Below, piece by piece: positions 54,263 through 61,651 of a stretch of 64,000 nucleotides of DNA. Below the pieces are notes generated by a model. It was not told the origin of the DNA, did not search any database, and was given only the letters and a program-made list of their open reading frames with translations. Location of the stretch: the NCBI GenBank assembly GCA_022565595.1, contig JAIUML010000002.1, forward strand, positions 1-64,000. The letters are read 5' to 3'. The position numbers and the translations under genes were made by a program. The stretch comes from Saccharospirillum sp. Lineage in GTDB: Bacteria > Pseudomonadota > Gammaproteobacteria > Pseudomonadales > Natronospirillaceae. The number at the start of each line of letters is the position of its first letter. Position 1 is the first letter of the stretch.

Positions 54263-56314
54263 TCAAGCTGTTACAGGTTCTTGCTTCCAGCTGAAATAAT
54301 TCCATGCCAGCAATACCATCACCACAACACCACAAATCGCTTGAATAGTGGTATCCGGTATGGCCGGGCTCATGGTGCTGAGCAAGGGGATGAAGGACGT
54401 CAGGGTTTGCAGGTCCGGGATGATGATCAGCACGGTGATTATGCTCAAGGCCCATCGCATCCAGCCGCGAATCCAGGTGAAGAAGTACCCTTCAATGGCG
54501 GCGACAAAGGCCATCAACCCGACGATAATCATCAAGCCTTTCCAGAGCACCAGCATCAAGTCACCACCGATGATAATTTCCGGGTTGAACACCATGTAGA
54601 GCGGAATGATGTAGAGCCCCTTGGCGAATTTCCAGGCCTGCACACTGGTTTCCATGGTCTTGCTGCCTGCGATGGCGGCCGCCGCGAAGGCGGCCAGTGC
54701 AACCGGTGGCGTTACATTCGAATCCTGGGAGTACCAGAACACCAACAAGTGAGCAACCAGAAGCGGGATACCAAACTCTGCAGTCAATGCCGGCCCGACC
54801 AGAACGATGAGCACGATGTAGCTGGCCGTTACCGGTAAGCCTAGACCAAGAATCAAACTGGCCAGCGCCACAAGCAAAACAACAGCGATGATATTGCCAC
54901 CCGAAAAGGCCACCATCATGGATGAGAACTTCAATCCCAGTCCAGTCAGGCCGACAATACCAACGACTATTCCAGCAACCGCACAGGCTATACTTACAGA
55001 AACAGCATTACGCGCACCAAGCTCCAGGGCCACCACCAAATTTCGAAAGCCGCCTTTTATCGATTCGACCATGGCCGCCTGGAACCTGCCACCCTGATGC
55101 CCCGCTCTGCCTGCTCGCCATAGACCATTAAGAGCAGCAACAGCAACAACGCTAACCACCGCATAGAAGCCAACCCTCATCGGTGACAACCCCATCACCA
55201 ACAGCACCACCAGCAATAGGACCGGTATCAACAGGAACCAGCCACGCATCATGACTTCGTGCAGGTTCGGCAGTTCATGACGTGGCAGGCCCTTCATTCC
55301 CTGCTTGATGGCGATGATGTGCACAAAGAGATAGACGGTAGCGAAATACAGCAAGGCCGGAAATACGCTGACCTTGACGATATCGAGATAGGCAACGCGG
55401 GTGTATTCGGCCATCAGAAAGGCGCCGGCACCCATCAAGGGTGGCATGATCTGCCCACCGGTGCTGGCCGCTGCTTCGACGCCACCGGCTTGAGCAGGCT
55501 TGTAACCCAGCTTCTTCATCAGCGGAATAGTAAAGGCTCCACTGGTCACCACGTTGGCGATGGAACTGCCTGAGATCGATCCCATACTGGCGGAGGCCAG
55601 CACAGCTGCTTTGGCAGGCCCACCACGGCGGCTGCCGGTTCCGGCAAAGGCGAGATCAATAAAAAACCGTCCTGCGCCGGTGACTTCCAGGAAGGCACCA
55701 AAGAGTACAAAGATAAATACAAAGGTCGCGGCGACGCCCAGGGGTATCCCGAAAATGCCCTCCTGGCCAAGGTATAACTGAGCGGTAACGCGCTCCAGTG
55801 TGTAGCCACGATGGTTGAGAATACCGGGCAACCATTCACCCAACCAGGGCAACTCACCGCGAGGCCCGGCAAAGGCGTAGGTGATGGCGATCATGCCAAT
55901 CAAAGTCAAACCAAAGCCTACCGCTCTACGACTGGCTTCGAGCAGGGTAATAATAGCGATCACGCCAGCAGTGATGTCCGCTGAAGACCAGAAACCCGCT
56001 CGAGAGAAGATGGCATCGAGGTTGTAGACCAGATAGAACCCGGAATAGATAGCACCAGCAAAAAAGACCAGATCAAAAATGGAAGTAAACCAGTTCCGCT
56101 TGGTACCCGGCCAGGGTGGGTAAATCAGAAACGCCAACATCATCACAAGAGCCAGGTGGGTGCCGCGTTGATAAAACAACCCTAATGGCTGCACACCCGC
56201 TCCGTAAAGCTGAAAGAGAGATAAACCGATGCCAAGCAGGGTGATCAACCAGAGTAATGGTTTAGGCCCGGCTTTTTTAATCAGGGGGCCGGTGTCGGAA
56301 GTCGACAGTGTCAT
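54263..56314 (-). CDS. TRAP transporter fused permease (DctQM type, TAXI system)
   Basis: 683-residue integral membrane protein with roughly 16 hydrophobic segments. The N-terminal 4-TM DctQ-like part is fused to the large DctM-type ion-coupled permease: GSISGSSIANVVTSGAFTIPLMKKLGYKPAQAGGVEAAASTGGQIMPPLMGAGAFLMAEYTRVAY and NVTPPVALAAFAAAAIAG. Such fused 4TM/12TM permeases pair with TAXI receptors and import dicarboxylates or amino acids using a sodium or proton gradient. It is the third gene after the receptor and DUF1850 protein on the minus strand, all under the predicted sigma-54 promoter. Confidence 0.93.
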   Translation of the reverse strand: MTLSTSDTGPLIKKAGPKPLLWLITLLGIGLSLFQLYGAGVQPLGLFYQRGTHLALVMMLAFLIYPPWPGTKRNWFTSIFDLVFFAGAIYSGFYLVYNLDAIFSRAGFWSSADITAGVIAIITLLEASRRAVGFGLTLIGMIAITYAFAGPRGELPWLGEWLPGILNHRGYTLERVTAQLYLGQEGIFGIPLGVAATFVFIFVLFGAFLEVTGAGRFFIDLAFAGTGSRRGGPAKAAVLASASMGSISGSSIANVVTSGAFTIPLMKKLGYKPAQAGGVEAAASTGGQIMPPLMGAGAFLMAEYTRVAYLDIVKVSVFPALLYFATVYLFVHIIAIKQGMKGLPRHELPNLHEVMMRGWFLLIPVLLLVVLLVMGLSPMRVGFYAVVSVVAVAALNGLWRAGRAGHQGGRFQAAMVESIKGGFRNLVVALELGARNAVSVSIACAVAGIVVGIVGLTGLGLKFSSMMVAFSGGNIIAVVLLVALASLILGLGLPVTASYIVLIVLVGPALTAEFGIPLLVAHLLVFWYSQDSNVTPPVALAAFAAAAIAGSKTMETSVQAWKFAKGLYIIPLYMVFNPEIIIGGDLMLVLWKGLMIIVGLMAFVAAIEGYFFTWIRGWMRWALSIITVLIIIPDLQTLTSFIPLLSTMSPAIPDTTIQAICGVVVMVLLAWNYFSWKQEPVTA

Positions 56315-56338: not shown

Positions 56339-56821
56339 TTATAGTGGCGCTTTCTGCACTCGAATACGAACCGGTTCACCAGCAGCCAGGGCTGACAAGC
56401 TGGTTATGATTCCTTGTTGTACGATGCGGTGATCCACCTGGTTCGAGCCCACACGAAGCACCACTTCATTATTGTTCAGTGGTTCATTGATGTCCTGGAT
56501 AATATAGCCACCTTTACCATCGCTGAGCAAAGTTCCGCGACCAGGTAAATGATCCAGGCCTGCAGCAAAGTCAGGTTGGTGACTGTGACTGAGCATCAAC
56601 TGCTCTTGATGCCAGATAAAGCAATCGCGAACCAGAAAATGAGCAACGGAATGCTGCCAGTGAAGACACCATTGCCCACTTTCATTCAACTCGAGAGTCA
56701 ACACAACTTCATTATCATTCAGGCGCTGAACCTCCAGTTGCAGGGCCTGAGCGGGAGCCGAAACCCCTACCCAGACCAGCAGACTCAACAGACCGGTTTT
56801 TATCGAGTGCAAGCCGGCCAT
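56339..56821 (-). CDS. DUF1850 protein linked to TRAP-TAXI transporter
   Basis: 160 residues with an N-terminal signal peptide (GLLSLLVWVGVSAPAQA). The body matches DUF1850, a family found almost only between TAXI receptor and fused permease genes: LELNESGQWCLHWQHSVAHFLVRDCFIWHQEQLMLSHSHQPDFAAGLDHLPGRGTLL. Function is unknown; a periplasmic accessory role in the transporter is inferred from gene order. It lies nine bases after the receptor gene and 24 bases before the permease gene. Confidence 0.85.
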   Translation of the reverse strand: MAGLHSIKTGLLSLLVWVGVSAPAQALQLEVQRLNDNEVVLTLELNESGQWCLHWQHSVAHFLVRDCFIWHQEQLMLSHSHQPDFAAGLDHLPGRGTLLSDGKGGYIIQDINEPLNNNEVVLRVGSNQVDHRIVQQGIITSLSALAAGEPVRIRVQKAPL

Positions 56822-56830
56822 GTCAGGTCT

Positions 56831-57790
56831 TTACTCGCGCAAGCGATCAGGAATGCTGGCACCCGTTTCTTCGTAGTAACGCAATGCACCAGGATGCAAG
56901 GGGATTGGCGTGGCGCCGAGGCTGAACGGTATGGTGGTGCTGTTCGCAGAAGGGTGAATGGCACGCAACTCATCCACATGCTCAAAGAGGATGCGAGTTA
57001 TCTGATAAGCCAGCTCTTCATCCATGGCTTCATTGATCACCAGTACGTTGGGAATACCGATGGTTCTAATAGGGCCAACGCCCTCATAGGTACCCTCAGG
57101 CATATCGTAAGGTGCAAAAACAGGCTCTACATCAATGGCATTGGCAATCTGCTCATCGGTCAATTCAATCACTCGAATACTGCGTGCGGTTGCCAGACTC
57201 ATGATGGAACTGGTCGGTGGGCCCACACTCCAGAAACCGGCATCAATATCACCATCACGCAGGGCGTCAGCCGTTTCATTGAAGTTCAAACGCTGTGGCG
57301 AGAAATCGCTGTAGCTGATGCCGTTGGCCTCCAACAATGCCTGGGCGTTGACTTCTGTACCACTGCCAGGTGCGCCGACGGAAACACGCTTGCCGACCAG
57401 GTCATCCAGTGAGGTAATACCAGAGTTAGACAAGGTAACCAATTGAACGGCGTTCGGATAGATCGAACCAATGGCACGAATCGAATCCAATTGACGACCT
57501 TCAAATGGGCCAGACCCCTGATAAGCAGCGAGTACGGTATCTGCAAGGGCCAGAGCCATATCCGAATCTTCGCGGAACACCAGGCCCATGTTTTCTACAG
57601 AGGCACCCGTCACTTCAGCAACGCCGGTGTAGCCATCGATATGACGACCAATCATTTCTCCCAAACCGCCACCAATAGGGTAATACACACCACCAGTGCC
57701 GCCGGTCGCAATAGTTAAAGTGGTCTGTGCCTGGACACTGCCGACCGCCATGGTCAGGCCGAGTGCCAACGCGGGCAATAAACGACGCAT
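56831..57790 (-). CDS. TAXI-family TRAP transporter substrate-binding protein
   Basis: Periplasmic receptor (319 residues) of a TRAP transporter. The signal peptide MRRLLPALALGLTMAVGSVQA is followed by the TAXI start TTLTIATGGTGGVYYPIGGGLGEMI (the family name comes from the T-A-x-I motif; here TIAT). Later blocks are RVSVGAPGSGTEVNAQALLEANG, DAGFWSVGPPTSSIMSLA and YEGVGPIRTIGIPNVLVINEAMDEELAYQITRILFEH. GGAGAG precedes the ATG. The upstream 325-base region holds a sigma-54 promoter. A dicarboxylate-like ligand is inferred only from the DctBD-like regulators. Confidence 0.93.
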   Translation of the reverse strand: MRRLLPALALGLTMAVGSVQAQTTLTIATGGTGGVYYPIGGGLGEMIGRHIDGYTGVAEVTGASVENMGLVFREDSDMALALADTVLAAYQGSGPFEGRQLDSIRAIGSIYPNAVQLVTLSNSGITSLDDLVGKRVSVGAPGSGTEVNAQALLEANGISYSDFSPQRLNFNETADALRDGDIDAGFWSVGPPTSSIMSLATARSIRVIELTDEQIANAIDVEPVFAPYDMPEGTYEGVGPIRTIGIPNVLVINEAMDEELAYQITRILFEHVDELRAIHPSANSTTIPFSLGATPIPLHPGALRYYEETGASIPDRLRE

Positions 57791-57934
57791 AGAGTTCTCT
57801 CCGTAATGTTGTCTTTTTTAAAGGAGTGCAAACACGTCCGTCGATCGCCAGTGCGACTGTTGGTACGTGGTTGCTGGTTGTAGACCGGTCACCTTTATGT
57901 TTTTTATCGGGTCACAGTCCAGTACTCCTGTTGT

Positions 57935-57951
57935 AGCAAATACTCTGCCAA
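57935..57951 (-). promoter_or_regulatory. Sigma-54 promoter for the TRAP-TAXI operon
   Basis: On the minus strand TTGGCAGAGTATTTGCT: GG-N10-GC with TGGCA at -24 and TTGC at -12, against consensus TGGCACG-N4-TTGCA. Transcription would start near 57924, leaving a leader of about 134 bases before the receptor gene. The palindrome CCCCATCTGGGG (57963-57974) lies just upstream and could help regulate. A DctD-like sigma-54 activator is encoded next door. Confidence 0.75.
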
Positions 57952-58115
57952 CCTTGAAATCGCCCCATCTGGGGACTTGCCAGGCCTCATAGGCAGTATT
58001 TTGCTCAAAGACACTCTGCCGATAAGCAAAATTCCGCCGATCAATAAAAATCTGCGGATTCGGTGCCTTTTCCGTTAGGATAGAAGCATAACAAGAGACT
58101 GATAAGCCGTGTTCC

Positions 58116-60290
58116 ATGACTGCGCATGACTCGCCAAAACTCCTTCCGCCCTGGCTATCCTTTATTTCCTTGCGCGGAGTTCTGATCGGCCTGGCACTCA
58201 CCCTGTCAATGCTGTTGCTGGCCTCAGATAGCCATCTGATGGGCCGGGAAGCCGCACGCACGGCAGAACAAGCCGAACGCCGGCTAGGAGCTTACAAGAC
58301 CTCACTCCAGGCCACCATTCATCGCCATCAGTATCTGTCGCGCATACTCGCCGAAGACCCTCGCCTGGTTGTTCCGCTGCGCCAGGTGGTAAGACACCCC
58401 AATACCCTGGGGCTGGACATCAATCACTCCGAATTGCTGAATCAGATCAATGAGGCGGCAGGCTCGGACGAGATATTCGTTATGGACCGGGAGGGATACA
58501 CACACTGGTCCAGCAACTACCAGGCTGCAACCAGTTTCGTTGGCCAGAATTATGGCTTCCGTCCCTACTTTATCGACGCCATGGCCGGGCGCCAGGGCTT
58601 CTATTATGCCGTTGGAGCGACATCTGGTATTCCCGGGCTATTTTTTGCCAATCCGATTCGCAGTGACGGTGAGATCCTGGGTGTGGTCGTTGTCAAAATC
58701 GATCTGGCACCACTGGAACTGAGCTGGCAAGAATCCGGTGACCAGGTCTGGGTGACAGACCGCAACGGCATCATCTTTCTGGCCTCGGATGAGCGCTGGC
58801 ATTACCGCGCCATTCGGCCGATCAGTCAGGGCGTACAGAACCGGTTGAACACCACTCTACAATATGGGCCGGGGCCCATTGAACTGCTGCCTCAGGAAGA
58901 GACCCGCCTGAGCTCCGAGTGGTCAGCCTTTTCCGATGCCGACCAGAATCTGTTACTCAACTTCCCCTCTGACATCGGTTTCTACCCCTGGGATATGCAC
59001 TGGCTGGTGCCTTTGAGTCAATTGCGACAACGCGTTTGGGGCCAACAACTGGCGATCATCCTGGCCTACATCCTGTGCGCTGGCGGTCTGCTGTACTATC
59101 GTGAGCGCCATCGTCGTACCTCCGCTCAAATGGCGCTGAGCCGCATGACTCAGGAACGAGAAAGTCACCAGCGAGCCATTATTCAGAATACCGACGCTGG
59201 CTTGTTGAACCTGGACGATGGGTTTAGACCCATTTTTATCAATGAAAAAGCGCGCGATCTCTTCCTGCTGTCAGCAGAAAGCCTTTCGCCCCGGCCGGAT
59301 TCTCTATTCTCGCCCTGGTGCCCAGAAAAGGCAGGTGCTTCCTCAATAAGGGCGGAAGGGTTGCGCCGCGATGGCAGCCGCTTCCCGTTGCTCTACACAC
59401 TGAAATCCATTCGCGTTGGCGATCAGAACGAATACATCCTGACCGTTCAGGACATCACCGAATTGACCGACGCCCAGATCGCGCTGCAGGAAGCCAACGA
59501 AGCACTGGAGCGTCGCGTTGAAGAGCGCACAGCCGATCTACAGCGAGCACAGGCTGCACTGGCTCAGAACCAGAAACTGGCCGCGCTGGGGCGAATGTCT
59601 GCCGCCATTGCTCATGAGATCAATCAGCCCATCACCGCTCTTGGCAATTACGCTGCCAGCAGCAGATTACTGTTACAGCATCAGCAACCCGACAAGGTGG
59701 CTGAAAACCTGACCAGAATTGAAGCTCTGCTCGAACGACTGTCCAGTCTGTCGCGTCAGTTGCGTATCTTCTCAGGCAAGCGCAATACCGGCAGCGAGTG
59801 GGTCTCCTTGCAGGGGCCGATGCGCTATGCGCTGGACCTGCTCAAGCCCCGGCTCGACGAGGCAGGTATAGAATGCAAGGTCGCCTTGAATGACGATGCA
59901 AGGGTTCAGGCGAATACCATGTTACTTGAGCAAATTGTGGTCAACCTGCTATCAAATGCCATAGATGCCCTGGACGGGCACCCCAACCCTGCCATCAACA
60001 TCAGCCTCAACCAGGACACTGAAGGTGCCTTGCAGCTGATCCTGGAAGACAACGGACCCGGCATGACCGCAGAGCAGCAGTCCAGGGTTTTTGAGCCTTT
60101 TTACACCACCAAGGCTGTCGGCAAGGGCGTCGGTCTGGGCCTGGCCATCAGCTACAGCCTGGCGCTGGACATGGGCGCCCATCTGTCAGTTGCCAGCACG
60201 CTCGGCCAGGGTAGCCGATTCATCCTGCATTTTCGATACAGTCAGCATGAACAACAGCAACCATCAACCAGTGAGCACACTTCAATATGA
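58116..60290 (+). CDS. Sensor histidine kinase, DctB-like
   Basis: 724 residues. TM1 near residues 22-42, a double-Cache (dCache) periplasmic sensor (about 45-305: NEAAGSDEIFVMDREGYTHWSSNYQ ... YAVGATSGIPGLFFANPI), TM2 (about 312-330), a PAS domain (about 345-465), a coiled coil, and the kinase core. The H-box is AAIAHEINQPITALGNYA, the N-box EQIVVNLLSNAIDALDG and the G-boxes EDNGPGM and GVGLGLAIS. This is the DctB plan for C4-dicarboxylate sensing. The response-regulator gene overlaps its 3' end. No CDS lies in 57791-58115. Confidence 0.92.
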   Translation: MTAHDSPKLLPPWLSFISLRGVLIGLALTLSMLLLASDSHLMGREAARTAEQAERRLGAYKTSLQATIHRHQYLSRILAEDPRLVVPLRQVVRHPNTLGLDINHSELLNQINEAAGSDEIFVMDREGYTHWSSNYQAATSFVGQNYGFRPYFIDAMAGRQGFYYAVGATSGIPGLFFANPIRSDGEILGVVVVKIDLAPLELSWQESGDQVWVTDRNGIIFLASDERWHYRAIRPISQGVQNRLNTTLQYGPGPIELLPQEETRLSSEWSAFSDADQNLLLNFPSDIGFYPWDMHWLVPLSQLRQRVWGQQLAIILAYILCAGGLLYYRERHRRTSAQMALSRMTQERESHQRAIIQNTDAGLLNLDDGFRPIFINEKARDLFLLSAESLSPRPDSLFSPWCPEKAGASSIRAEGLRRDGSRFPLLYTLKSIRVGDQNEYILTVQDITELTDAQIALQEANEALERRVEERTADLQRAQAALAQNQKLAALGRMSAAIAHEINQPITALGNYAASSRLLLQHQQPDKVAENLTRIEALLERLSSLSRQLRIFSGKRNTGSEWVSLQGPMRYALDLLKPRLDEAGIECKVALNDDARVQANTMLLEQIVVNLLSNAIDALDGHPNPAINISLNQDTEGALQLILEDNGPGMTAEQQSRVFEPFYTTKAVGKGVGLGLAISYSLALDMGAHLSVASTLGQGSRFILHFRYSQHEQQQPSTSEHTSI

Positions 60291-61651
60291 ATAATGACCT
60301 GGAAGCCGTGGTCATTGATGACGATCCCGCCGTCCTTGAATCCCTTGAGCAATGGCTGAGTCTGGCCAACATCAAGGTACAATGCTTTGCCAGTGCCAAG
60401 GAGGCTCTGCCTCTGTTAACAGAGCACTACCCCGGCGTTGTCGTTTCAGACATTCGTATGCCAGGACTCGATGGCATGAGCCTGCTGCGCCAGATGGACG
60501 CGCAAATACCCGTTATCCTGATTACTGGTCACGGCGGCATTGCTCAAGCGGTAGAAGCGATGAAGCTGGGGGCGTTCGATTTTCTGGAAAAACCCTACAA
60601 ACCAGAACGCCTGGTTGAGACCATCAAGCGCGCGTGCCAGCAACGCCAGGTGACCCTGGCGACCTCACCTGTTGTATCCGATTCTGATGACGGCTTGTGC
60701 CAGCGTATATTAGGCCAGTCCCCTCAGATCGAGGCCGTACGCAAGCAGGTTCGTGCCTTGGCTCGAGCCAACGCCGACATCATCATTACCGGTGAAACCG
60801 GTACCGGCAAGGAACTGGTCGCGCGCAACCTGCATGATCTGAGCGTGCGCCAACAGGCACCCTTTGTTGCCATTAACGTCGCAGCGATTCCAGAAAACCT
60901 GCTCGAAAGCGAATTGTTTGGCCACGAAGCTGGCGCCTTTACTGGGGCGCAAAAAAGACAGGAAGGTTTTTTCGAAGCCGCCAACAATGGCACGCTCTTT
61001 CTGGATGAAATCGAAAGCATGTCGATGGAGTTTCAGATCAAATTACTGCGAGTATTGCAGGAGCGGGAAGTCATGCGAGTCGGGTCTCGCAAAGCCATAG
61101 CCATCAATGTTCGTATTCTTTCCGCCAGCAAGGAAAACCTGCGAGAATCCGCGACTCGAGGGGGGTTTCGTGAGGATCTTTACTATCGATTGATGGTAGC
61201 GGAAATCCAACTGCCACCATTGCGCGAACGTCAGGGCGATGTTCCGCTGCTGTTTCAACACTTCCTCAAACAGGCGGCGCAAGCCAATGAGATTGAGCTG
61301 CCCGAATTAAGCTATGACGACGTACTGGCACTCGAACTGCATGACTGGCCGGGCAATGTTCGAGAACTCAAACACACGGCCGAACGTTGGCTTCTGACCA
61401 ACAGTTTTCAGCAGGTCTCCGTCAGTGAACTATTGCAGTTGGGCAGCAACCAGCGCTTTGCTTTGGGTGACCAGGAGGCCTCACTCAGTGCGCGCATGGA
61501 GCAGGTTGAAAAAGCTCTGATTTCGGCCGAACTGAAACAGCATCAGGGTGACATCAAGCAGGTCATGGAAGCCCTTGATCTGCCGCGTCGTACACTCAAT
61601 CAAAAAATGCAAAAGTACGGATTAAAGCGTGAAGAATTTCTACTGAGTTGA
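60287..61651 (+). CDS. Sigma-54-dependent response regulator, DctD-like
   Basis: 454 residues: a receiver domain (VIDDDPAVLESLEQWL, phospho-Asp in VVSDIRMPGLDGMSLLR, near residue 53), a AAA+ domain with Walker A GETGTGKEL and the sigma-54 contact loop ESELFGHEAGAFTGAQKRQEGFFEAANNGTLFLDEI (GAFTGA intact), arginine-finger region and a Fis-type HTH at the end (IKQVMEALDLPRRTLNQKMQKYGL). It overlaps the kinase gene by four bases. It most likely activates the sigma-54 promoter upstream of the divergent TRAP genes; the ligand is inferred to be a carboxylate. Confidence 0.94.
   Translation: MNNDLEAVVIDDDPAVLESLEQWLSLANIKVQCFASAKEALPLLTEHYPGVVVSDIRMPGLDGMSLLRQMDAQIPVILITGHGGIAQAVEAMKLGAFDFLEKPYKPERLVETIKRACQQRQVTLATSPVVSDSDDGLCQRILGQSPQIEAVRKQVRALARANADIIITGETGTGKELVARNLHDLSVRQQAPFVAINVAAIPENLLESELFGHEAGAFTGAQKRQEGFFEAANNGTLFLDEIESMSMEFQIKLLRVLQEREVMRVGSRKAIAINVRILSASKENLRESATRGGFREDLYYRLMVAEIQLPPLRERQGDVPLLFQHFLKQAAQANEIELPELSYDDVLALELHDWPGNVRELKHTAERWLLTNSFQQVSVSELLQLGSNQRFALGDQEASLSARMEQVEKALISAELKQHQGDIKQVMEALDLPRRTLNQKMQKYGLKREEFLLS

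Follow-up and report, generated by a model that had tools for sequence, protein, structure and literature searches.

A predicted sigma-54 promoter and paired candidate activator sites between a DctB-like sensor-regulator pair and a TAXI-type TRAP transporter operon in Saccharospirillum

The window analysed here is a stretch of 64,000 nucleotides from Saccharospirillum sp. (contig JAIUML010000002.1, positions 1 to 64,000), in which the genes of a TAXI-type TRAP transporter lie divergent from those of a sensor kinase and a response regulator. The genes and the features between them are as follows.

54263 to 56314, minus strand: fused TRAP permease, 683 aa (TIGR02123 2.5e-191, PF06808 1.1e-78)
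56339 to 56821, minus strand: DUF1850 protein, 160 aa (PF08905 1.8e-14)
56831 to 57790, minus strand: TAXI-type TRAP solute-binding protein (receptor), 319 aa (TIGR02122 5.6e-96, PF16868 1.3e-88)
57935 to 57951, minus strand: predicted sigma-54 -24/-12 promoter TTGGCAGAGTATTTGCT, the top-scoring site of the window (17.3)
57963 to 57974, no strand: perfect 5-2-5 dyad CCCCATCTGGGG, judged to be chance
57989 to 58008, no strand: proximal candidate activator palindrome, sense TTGAGCAAAATACTGCCTAT, centred 49.5 nt before the promoter GG, score 15.5
58022 to 58041, no strand: distal candidate activator palindrome, sense ATCGGCGGAATTTTGCTTAT, centred 82.5 nt before the promoter GG, score 27.1
58116 to 60290, plus strand: sensor kinase with a DctB-like periplasmic dCache sensor (PF02743, PF02518; HisKA just below its cut-off)
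60287 to 61651, plus strand: NtrC-type response regulator with receiver, AAA+ and Fis-type helix-turn-helix domains (PF00072, PF00158, PF02954)

Assignment to the TAXI type was based on TIGR02122 and TIGR02123, both of which scored above their cut-offs. The place of the DUF1850 gene beside the fused permease is not unusual, since a match to this domain was found in 78 of 80 related loci; a literature search for DUF1850 with TRAP returned no paper. Among solved structures, those nearest to the kinase sensor were 3by9 (1e-33) and DctB 2zbb (1.8e-30), and the kinase has in common with DctB the FR-YF motif and, within VVVK, the lysine. The motif HEINQP occurs at residue 500, its His being the presumed phospho-acceptor. 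The start of the regulator overlaps the kinase stop, the two reading frames sharing four bases, and the regulator carries Asp55 in its receiver and GAFTGA at residues 216-221. The earlier note had described this pair as DctB/DctD-like, which is appropriate as a broad class, but the regulator and its close relatives form a separate clade, and it is 42% identical to Sinorhizobium meliloti DctD versus 47% to an AauR-like regulator of Pseudomonas aeruginosa, whose gene neighbours are an amino-acid ABC transporter, ggt and asparaginase (a subfamily comparison that covered DctD and the AauR-like protein).

All positions of the window were scored with a -24/-12 weight matrix. The site at 57935-57951 scored 17.3, with the runner-up at 15.9, and 40 Markov shuffles gave 0.075 expected sites of this score per 64 kb on both strands. 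As a positive control, the same matrix gave 17.5 for the promoter of the S. meliloti gene that we take to be dctA, the record of which reads dicarboxylate symporter. The site TTGGCAGAGTATTTGCT contains GG-N10-GC and matches 10 of the 12 letters of TGGCACG-N4-TTGCW, the -24/-12 consensus quoted in PMC4482717, which bears out the near-full consensus that the earlier note had claimed. Its placement before the receptor gene, divergent from the kinase and the GAFTGA-bearing activator, was also as that note had described. The promoter lies ~145 nt upstream of the receptor start (57790), and transcription would begin near 57924. The sigma factor itself is encoded within the same window, where a PF04552 match (2e-71) at G000:C2:18386-18859, G000 being the window's genome, identifies rpoN.

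Attention had also been drawn to the dyad CCCCATCTGGGG right upstream of the promoter. It does exist, and its perfect 5-2-5 form directly upstream of the promoter would suit an activator site or a repressor site; however, it is not exceptional. Perfect 5-2-5 dyads number 86 in the window versus 62.5 expected under equal base use, and among 18 promoters compared CCCCATCTGGGG was present in the window's alone (0 of 17 others). A regulatory role for this dyad is thus extremely improbable; we rejected it as an activator site and regard it as fitting chance.

Further upstream are two other palindromes, about ATAAGCRRAATYYYGCTTAT and spaced 33 nt, which had been overlooked. Reading the upstream sequences of relatives side by side gave an ideal form, ATAAGCGGAATTCCGCTTAT; palindrome sites were aligned by eye before scoring, and the motif used on the window drew on ten sites, all from Marinobacter or Nitrincola. 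Over the 64 kb, this outside-genus motif placed 58022-58041 first (27.1) and 57989-58008 second (15.5), whereas the highest value in 30 shuffled windows was 18.9 and the mean maximum 13.3. The distal site therefore stands on its score, and the proximal site, which scores below the shuffled highest, stands also on its place and spacing. An extra, overlapping match in the window promoter scored 11.4. We then scanned 13 promoters from genomes carrying the window's regulator clade, leaving the locus under test out of the motif and using a reporting limit of 7. A pair spaced 32-34 nt was present in all 13, with one weak copy (7.4-7.9) in L018, L088 and L099. The proximal centre was 60.5-61.5 nt from the GG in eight of these promoters and elsewhere 49.5 nt (the window), 70.5 nt (L088 and L099), 107.5 nt (L019) or 131.5 nt (L018), so that the window's proximal site is 11 nt nearer the GG than in the eight, about one helical turn.

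The palindrome was also searched as a pattern across nine genomes. Zero-mismatch matches, for a pattern itself drawn from the TAXI and dctP loci, occurred in only four places, each before a TAXI or dctP gene, giving one operon in each of four genomes. Away from the transporter promoters, one-mismatch matches occurred at G000:C9, G003:C1, G010:C1, G001:C3 and G002:C8; the contexts read, those of the first three, were the interiors of open reading frames, with no sigma-54 site of at least 9 within about 400 nt. Because the true sites in G004, G010 and G016 need two mismatches, a wider regulon is possible. The two palindromes are probable activator sites, and they would provide the paired upstream enhancer sites of an NtrC-type activator.

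We examined whether the promoter and the regulator travel together among relatives. At 1e-60 the receptor was found in 8 of 57 genomes, own included. Seven gene sets were strong, the window's own and those of six relatives: L018 and L019 share the divergent layout, L020 has the kinase-regulator pair upstream on the same strand, and near L021, L022 and L023 nothing closely related to the pair is encoded. Sense-strand sites scored 15.7 in L018, 13.5 in L019, 13.0 in L020, 16.3 in both L022 and L023, and 7.3 in L021. The genomes of L022 and L023 (G001 and G004) encode a 73-74% identical regulator elsewhere; in that of L021 (G005), with a site of only 7.3 and no regulator above 44%, both are absent.

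A comparison of named genomes covered the best 80 of 459 related loci, with receptor starts taken from the match start and sites counted within 400 nt. A sense-strand site of at least 13.5 was present in 12 of these 80, the next best scoring 10.3. A kinase and/or regulator of at least 43% identity was encoded nearby in ten of the 80, all ten among the 12 with a site (in L035 and L038, which lie at a contig end, the regulator alone). The remaining two, Saccharospirillum impatiens (L088) and a Saccharospirillum MAG (L099), have a 73-74% regulator elsewhere in the genome. This comparison overlaps the preceding one in three loci, L088 being L022, L099 being L023 and L032 being L019. At L039 and L040 a 40-41% regulator lies 7.5 kb downstream and there is no site; L083 has an antisense site (13.5) and no pair. 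The converse search took in 30 of the 80 genomes, with 56 candidates scored in the larger ones. In 24 searched genomes with a TAXI gene and no site, the regulator was at best 46-51% identical (17 genomes) or gave no match at 1e-120 (7), while a 68-71% regulator was found in four of four genomes with the site and the first regulator type, and regulators of 47-49% in the second-type genomes (L033, L036). The loci are related and the counts are not independent events, so they are given without a probability. In a class-wide sample, the regulator at 1e-185 was found in the window's genome only (1 of 369, about four candidates scored per genome), and a short-pattern search of genome contigs confirmed no relatives of the kinase.

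These comparisons also bear on the alternative that the -24/-12 match and the gene pair stand together by accident, with an ordinary promoter driving the TAXI operon and the regulator acting elsewhere. That 68 of the 80 close TAXI operons lack a sense-strand sigma-54 site is consistent with such a reading. It must nevertheless contend with a site score far above chance, the two-way co-occurrence of site and regulator, and the fixed-spacing palindromes in 13 of 13 promoters; moreover, no sigma-70-like promoter was found on either strand of 57780-58130, by a weak scan (0.3 expected in shuffles) that finds no kinase promoter either. We consider the accident very unlikely. Comparison with relatives instead gives strong support to the earlier note's proposal that promoter, regulator pair and TAXI operon belong together, and in these sequences the promoter and the paired sites occur jointly with the regulator across relatives and genome positions.

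The 13 regulators form one clade (support 100/99, midpoint root). Within it, the window's regulator joins L018 and L019 (95/98) rather than its congeners, and some deeper branchings are open. GAFTGA is present in 11 of the 13 and reads GSFTGA in L018 and L037. The stretch PRRTLN[QE]KM, taken as the recognition helix, occurs in all 13, and PRRTLNQKM in three second-type regulators compared; L027 and S. meliloti DctD have a different sequence at the putative helix, and palindrome motif scores were 13.5 for the L027 promoter and 6.1 for the dctA promoter. The second regulator type, about 44-48% identical and found with the same TAXI type, is that of L033, L035, L036 and L038 (Marinospirillum, Nitrincola and an Oceanospirillales MAG), the promoters of which have a related palindrome motif, e.g. 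ATAAGCAAAAAATGGCTGAT, in one copy only at L038.

L027 (G000:C7:158000-173000) is a second receptor-permease-kinase-regulator set of the TAXI type in the window's genome; its sigma-54 site is weaker (12.5) and paired palindromes are absent. Related permease-kinase-regulator sets occur in L135 and L137. For the paralogous or weakly related TAXI genes at L024-L026, L028, L029 and L031, site scores reached at most 8.4, in a scan for which the L030 stretch was only roughly placed.

The five-gene cassette is already in public records. On a plasmid of Marivivens sp. LCG002 (L170), receptor, DUF1850 protein, permease, kinase and regulator genes lie in a row. The regulator is annotated as sigma-54 dependent, yet it lacks GAFTGA, and no sigma-54 site precedes the receptor gene (best score 8.5); the regulator shares PRRTLN-KM, with a promoter palindrome score of 5.9. 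Control probably differs in this cassette, and the cassette therefore does not always mean sigma-54 control. Among plasmid records with a receptor relative (five of six read), the pair was annotated alongside in Marivivens; no kinase-regulator pair was annotated beside the receptor relative in the Roseivivax, Pontibrevibacter and Ilyobacter plasmids, and the Pseudorhodobacter record carries no annotation.

Two further genomes of the window's genus, G002 and G003, have no TAXI receptor at 1e-60 and encode the regulator (71% and 73%) directly before a DctP-type TRAP operon. In G002 (L132), DctP, DctQ and DctM were identified by Pfam; in L133 the receptor was identified by Pfam and the two permease genes by their likeness to L132 in order and first residues. 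The DctP promoters of G002 and G003 have sigma-54 sites of 15.9 and 14.2 together with paired palindromes. The kinase-regulator pair of G002 follows genes resembling dnaG and rpoD (named from their first residues). G001 and G004 have the pair at the same place without the DctP operon, their TAXI operon and sites lying elsewhere, and in G003 it is at another genome place. At 1e-40, DctP relatives were found in G002 and G003 only among nine genomes, and the nearest solved chain to the G002 DctP receptor (3.5e-15) gave no hint of a ligand. The sensor stretch around [FY]RPYF...AVGATSG-PGLF is near-identical in TAXI-linked, unlinked and DctP-linked kinases. This pattern suggests one regulon in which the transporter has been exchanged, in whichever direction and with or without horizontal transfer: what appears to stay constant is the regulator with its sites, and what appears to change is the transporter. 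We put forward, tentatively and at slightly less than even odds, that one sensor-regulator pair and enhancer code serves two TRAP types with unrelated receptors, TAXI in some species and DctPQM in close congeners, in cis or in trans. On this reading the transporters were swapped beneath an unchanged sensor and would be expected to share a substrate.

We sought to narrow down the ligand. VcGluP of Vibrio cholerae holds glutamate's amino group with three side chains, those of Y45, Q93 and E125, and with the M201 main chain (PMC11574862). The solved chain 8s4j, which we infer to be VcGluP, fits this numbering with an offset of 28. Aligned to it, the window receptor keeps Y45 (as Y36) and has L82 for Q93 and N113 for E125, so that two of the three amino-group side chains are replaced. 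Across the best 80 of 459 loci, the pocket letters Y36, S64, L82, Y111, N113, G144, T145, W187 and S188 are identical in all 80; S64, Y111 and N113 sit in the peptide patterns that selected these loci, so that only the remaining six letters are independent of how the loci were chosen. A further TAXI receptor in the window's genome, L026 (G000:C34:26000-41928), keeps the Q and the E and may be of the glutamate type.

The earlier note had offered C4-dicarboxylates, 2-oxoglutarate and glutamate as inducers. With Q93 and E125 replaced, glutamate would be less likely than a plain carboxylate, and with modest confidence we favour a carboxylate without an amino group, such as a C4-dicarboxylate or 2-oxoglutarate; this assignment follows from the residue mapping, and the likeness of the kinase sensor to DctB among solved structures is cited alongside it. 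Alternatively, the unit could sense and take up glutamate or aspartate, as P. aeruginosa AauSR does, with TAXI replacing the ABC transporter. The 47% identity to the regulator beside the amino-acid ABC transporter, ggt and asparaginase is in keeping with this, as are the binding of glutamate by the V. cholerae TAXI receptor and the need for a TAXI system in the sodium-dependent growth of Cereibacter sphaeroides on glutamate (PMC11574862, PMC12632250), but the exchange of Q93 and E125 for L82 and N113, and their retention in L026, make it unlikely. Known TAXI substrates include L-glutamate (PMC12632250) and orthophthalate (PMC11574862), so the ligand may also be a carboxylate other than those we favour.

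The nearest known arrangement is S. meliloti dctA/dctBD, in which the transporter is likewise divergent from a kinase-regulator pair with a DctB-type sensor and the sigma-54 site scores alike (17.5 vs 17.3). It differs in that the transporter is a symporter and not TRAP, the regulator is 42% identical, and the palindrome motif reaches only 6.1 in the dctA-dctB gap. The Pseudomonas plasmid pZYPA1927 encodes a pair that we take to be AauSR, with a 47% identical regulator, the closest reference compared besides the second TAXI type; unlike in the window, its neighbours are ABC transporter, ggt and asparaginase genes and its motif is HAFTGA. P. aeruginosa MifSR, related to DctBD, controls PA5530 with RpoN for 2-oxoglutarate (PMC4482717), and so resembles the window in joining such a pair and RpoN to one organic-acid transporter. 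PA5530, however, is related to the E. coli alpha-ketoglutarate permease (PMC4482717) and, judged by locus number, is not a neighbour of the PA5511/PA5512 pair. V. cholerae VcGluPQM likewise has a TAXI receptor with a membrane component, but is neighboured by argR, mdh and a UspA gene (PMC11574862), and its Q93 and E125 are replaced in the window receptor. In the openly accessible literature searched, we found no description of such sigma-54 control of a TAXI operon. Excerpts of the DctB paper PMC4077058 yielded no ligand residues, those of PMC3162934 did not use the word TRAP, and those of PMC7666164 held nothing on the window's transporter. To judge from sequence, the locus is a true sigma-54 unit; its logic is ordinary, and its target is one that has been little described.

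Our model, to which we assign a probability of roughly 0.87, is a divergent unit composed of a carboxylate-sensing kinase, a regulator acting on two palindromes, and a sigma-54 promoter driving the TAXI operon. The kinase would sense a small extracellular carboxylate via its DctB-like dCache domain and phosphorylate the NtrC-type regulator. The regulator would bind the palindromes at 58022-58041 and 57989-58008, 33 nt apart, and loop to sigma-54 polymerase parked at 57935-57951, so that receptor, DUF1850 protein and fused permease would be switched on as one operon. In this model the binding, phosphorylation, activation, co-transcription and ligand are inferred. Beyond the earlier note, the analysis contributes the predicted enhancer pair, the co-occurrence in both directions, and an apparent exchange of TAXI and DctPQM transporters under one regulator.

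Few TAXI transporters have known substrates (PMC11574862), and members of the TAXI subfamily concerned are numerous among Halomonas, Marinobacter and related bacteria. Should the transporter indeed be what changes while the regulator stays, the ligand of the sensor would offer a direct route to the substrate of this subfamily; if the shared control of TAXI and DctPQM proves true, the kinase ligand would identify the substrate of an orphan TAXI family. The enhancer motif, in turn, would let the regulon be read from sequence.
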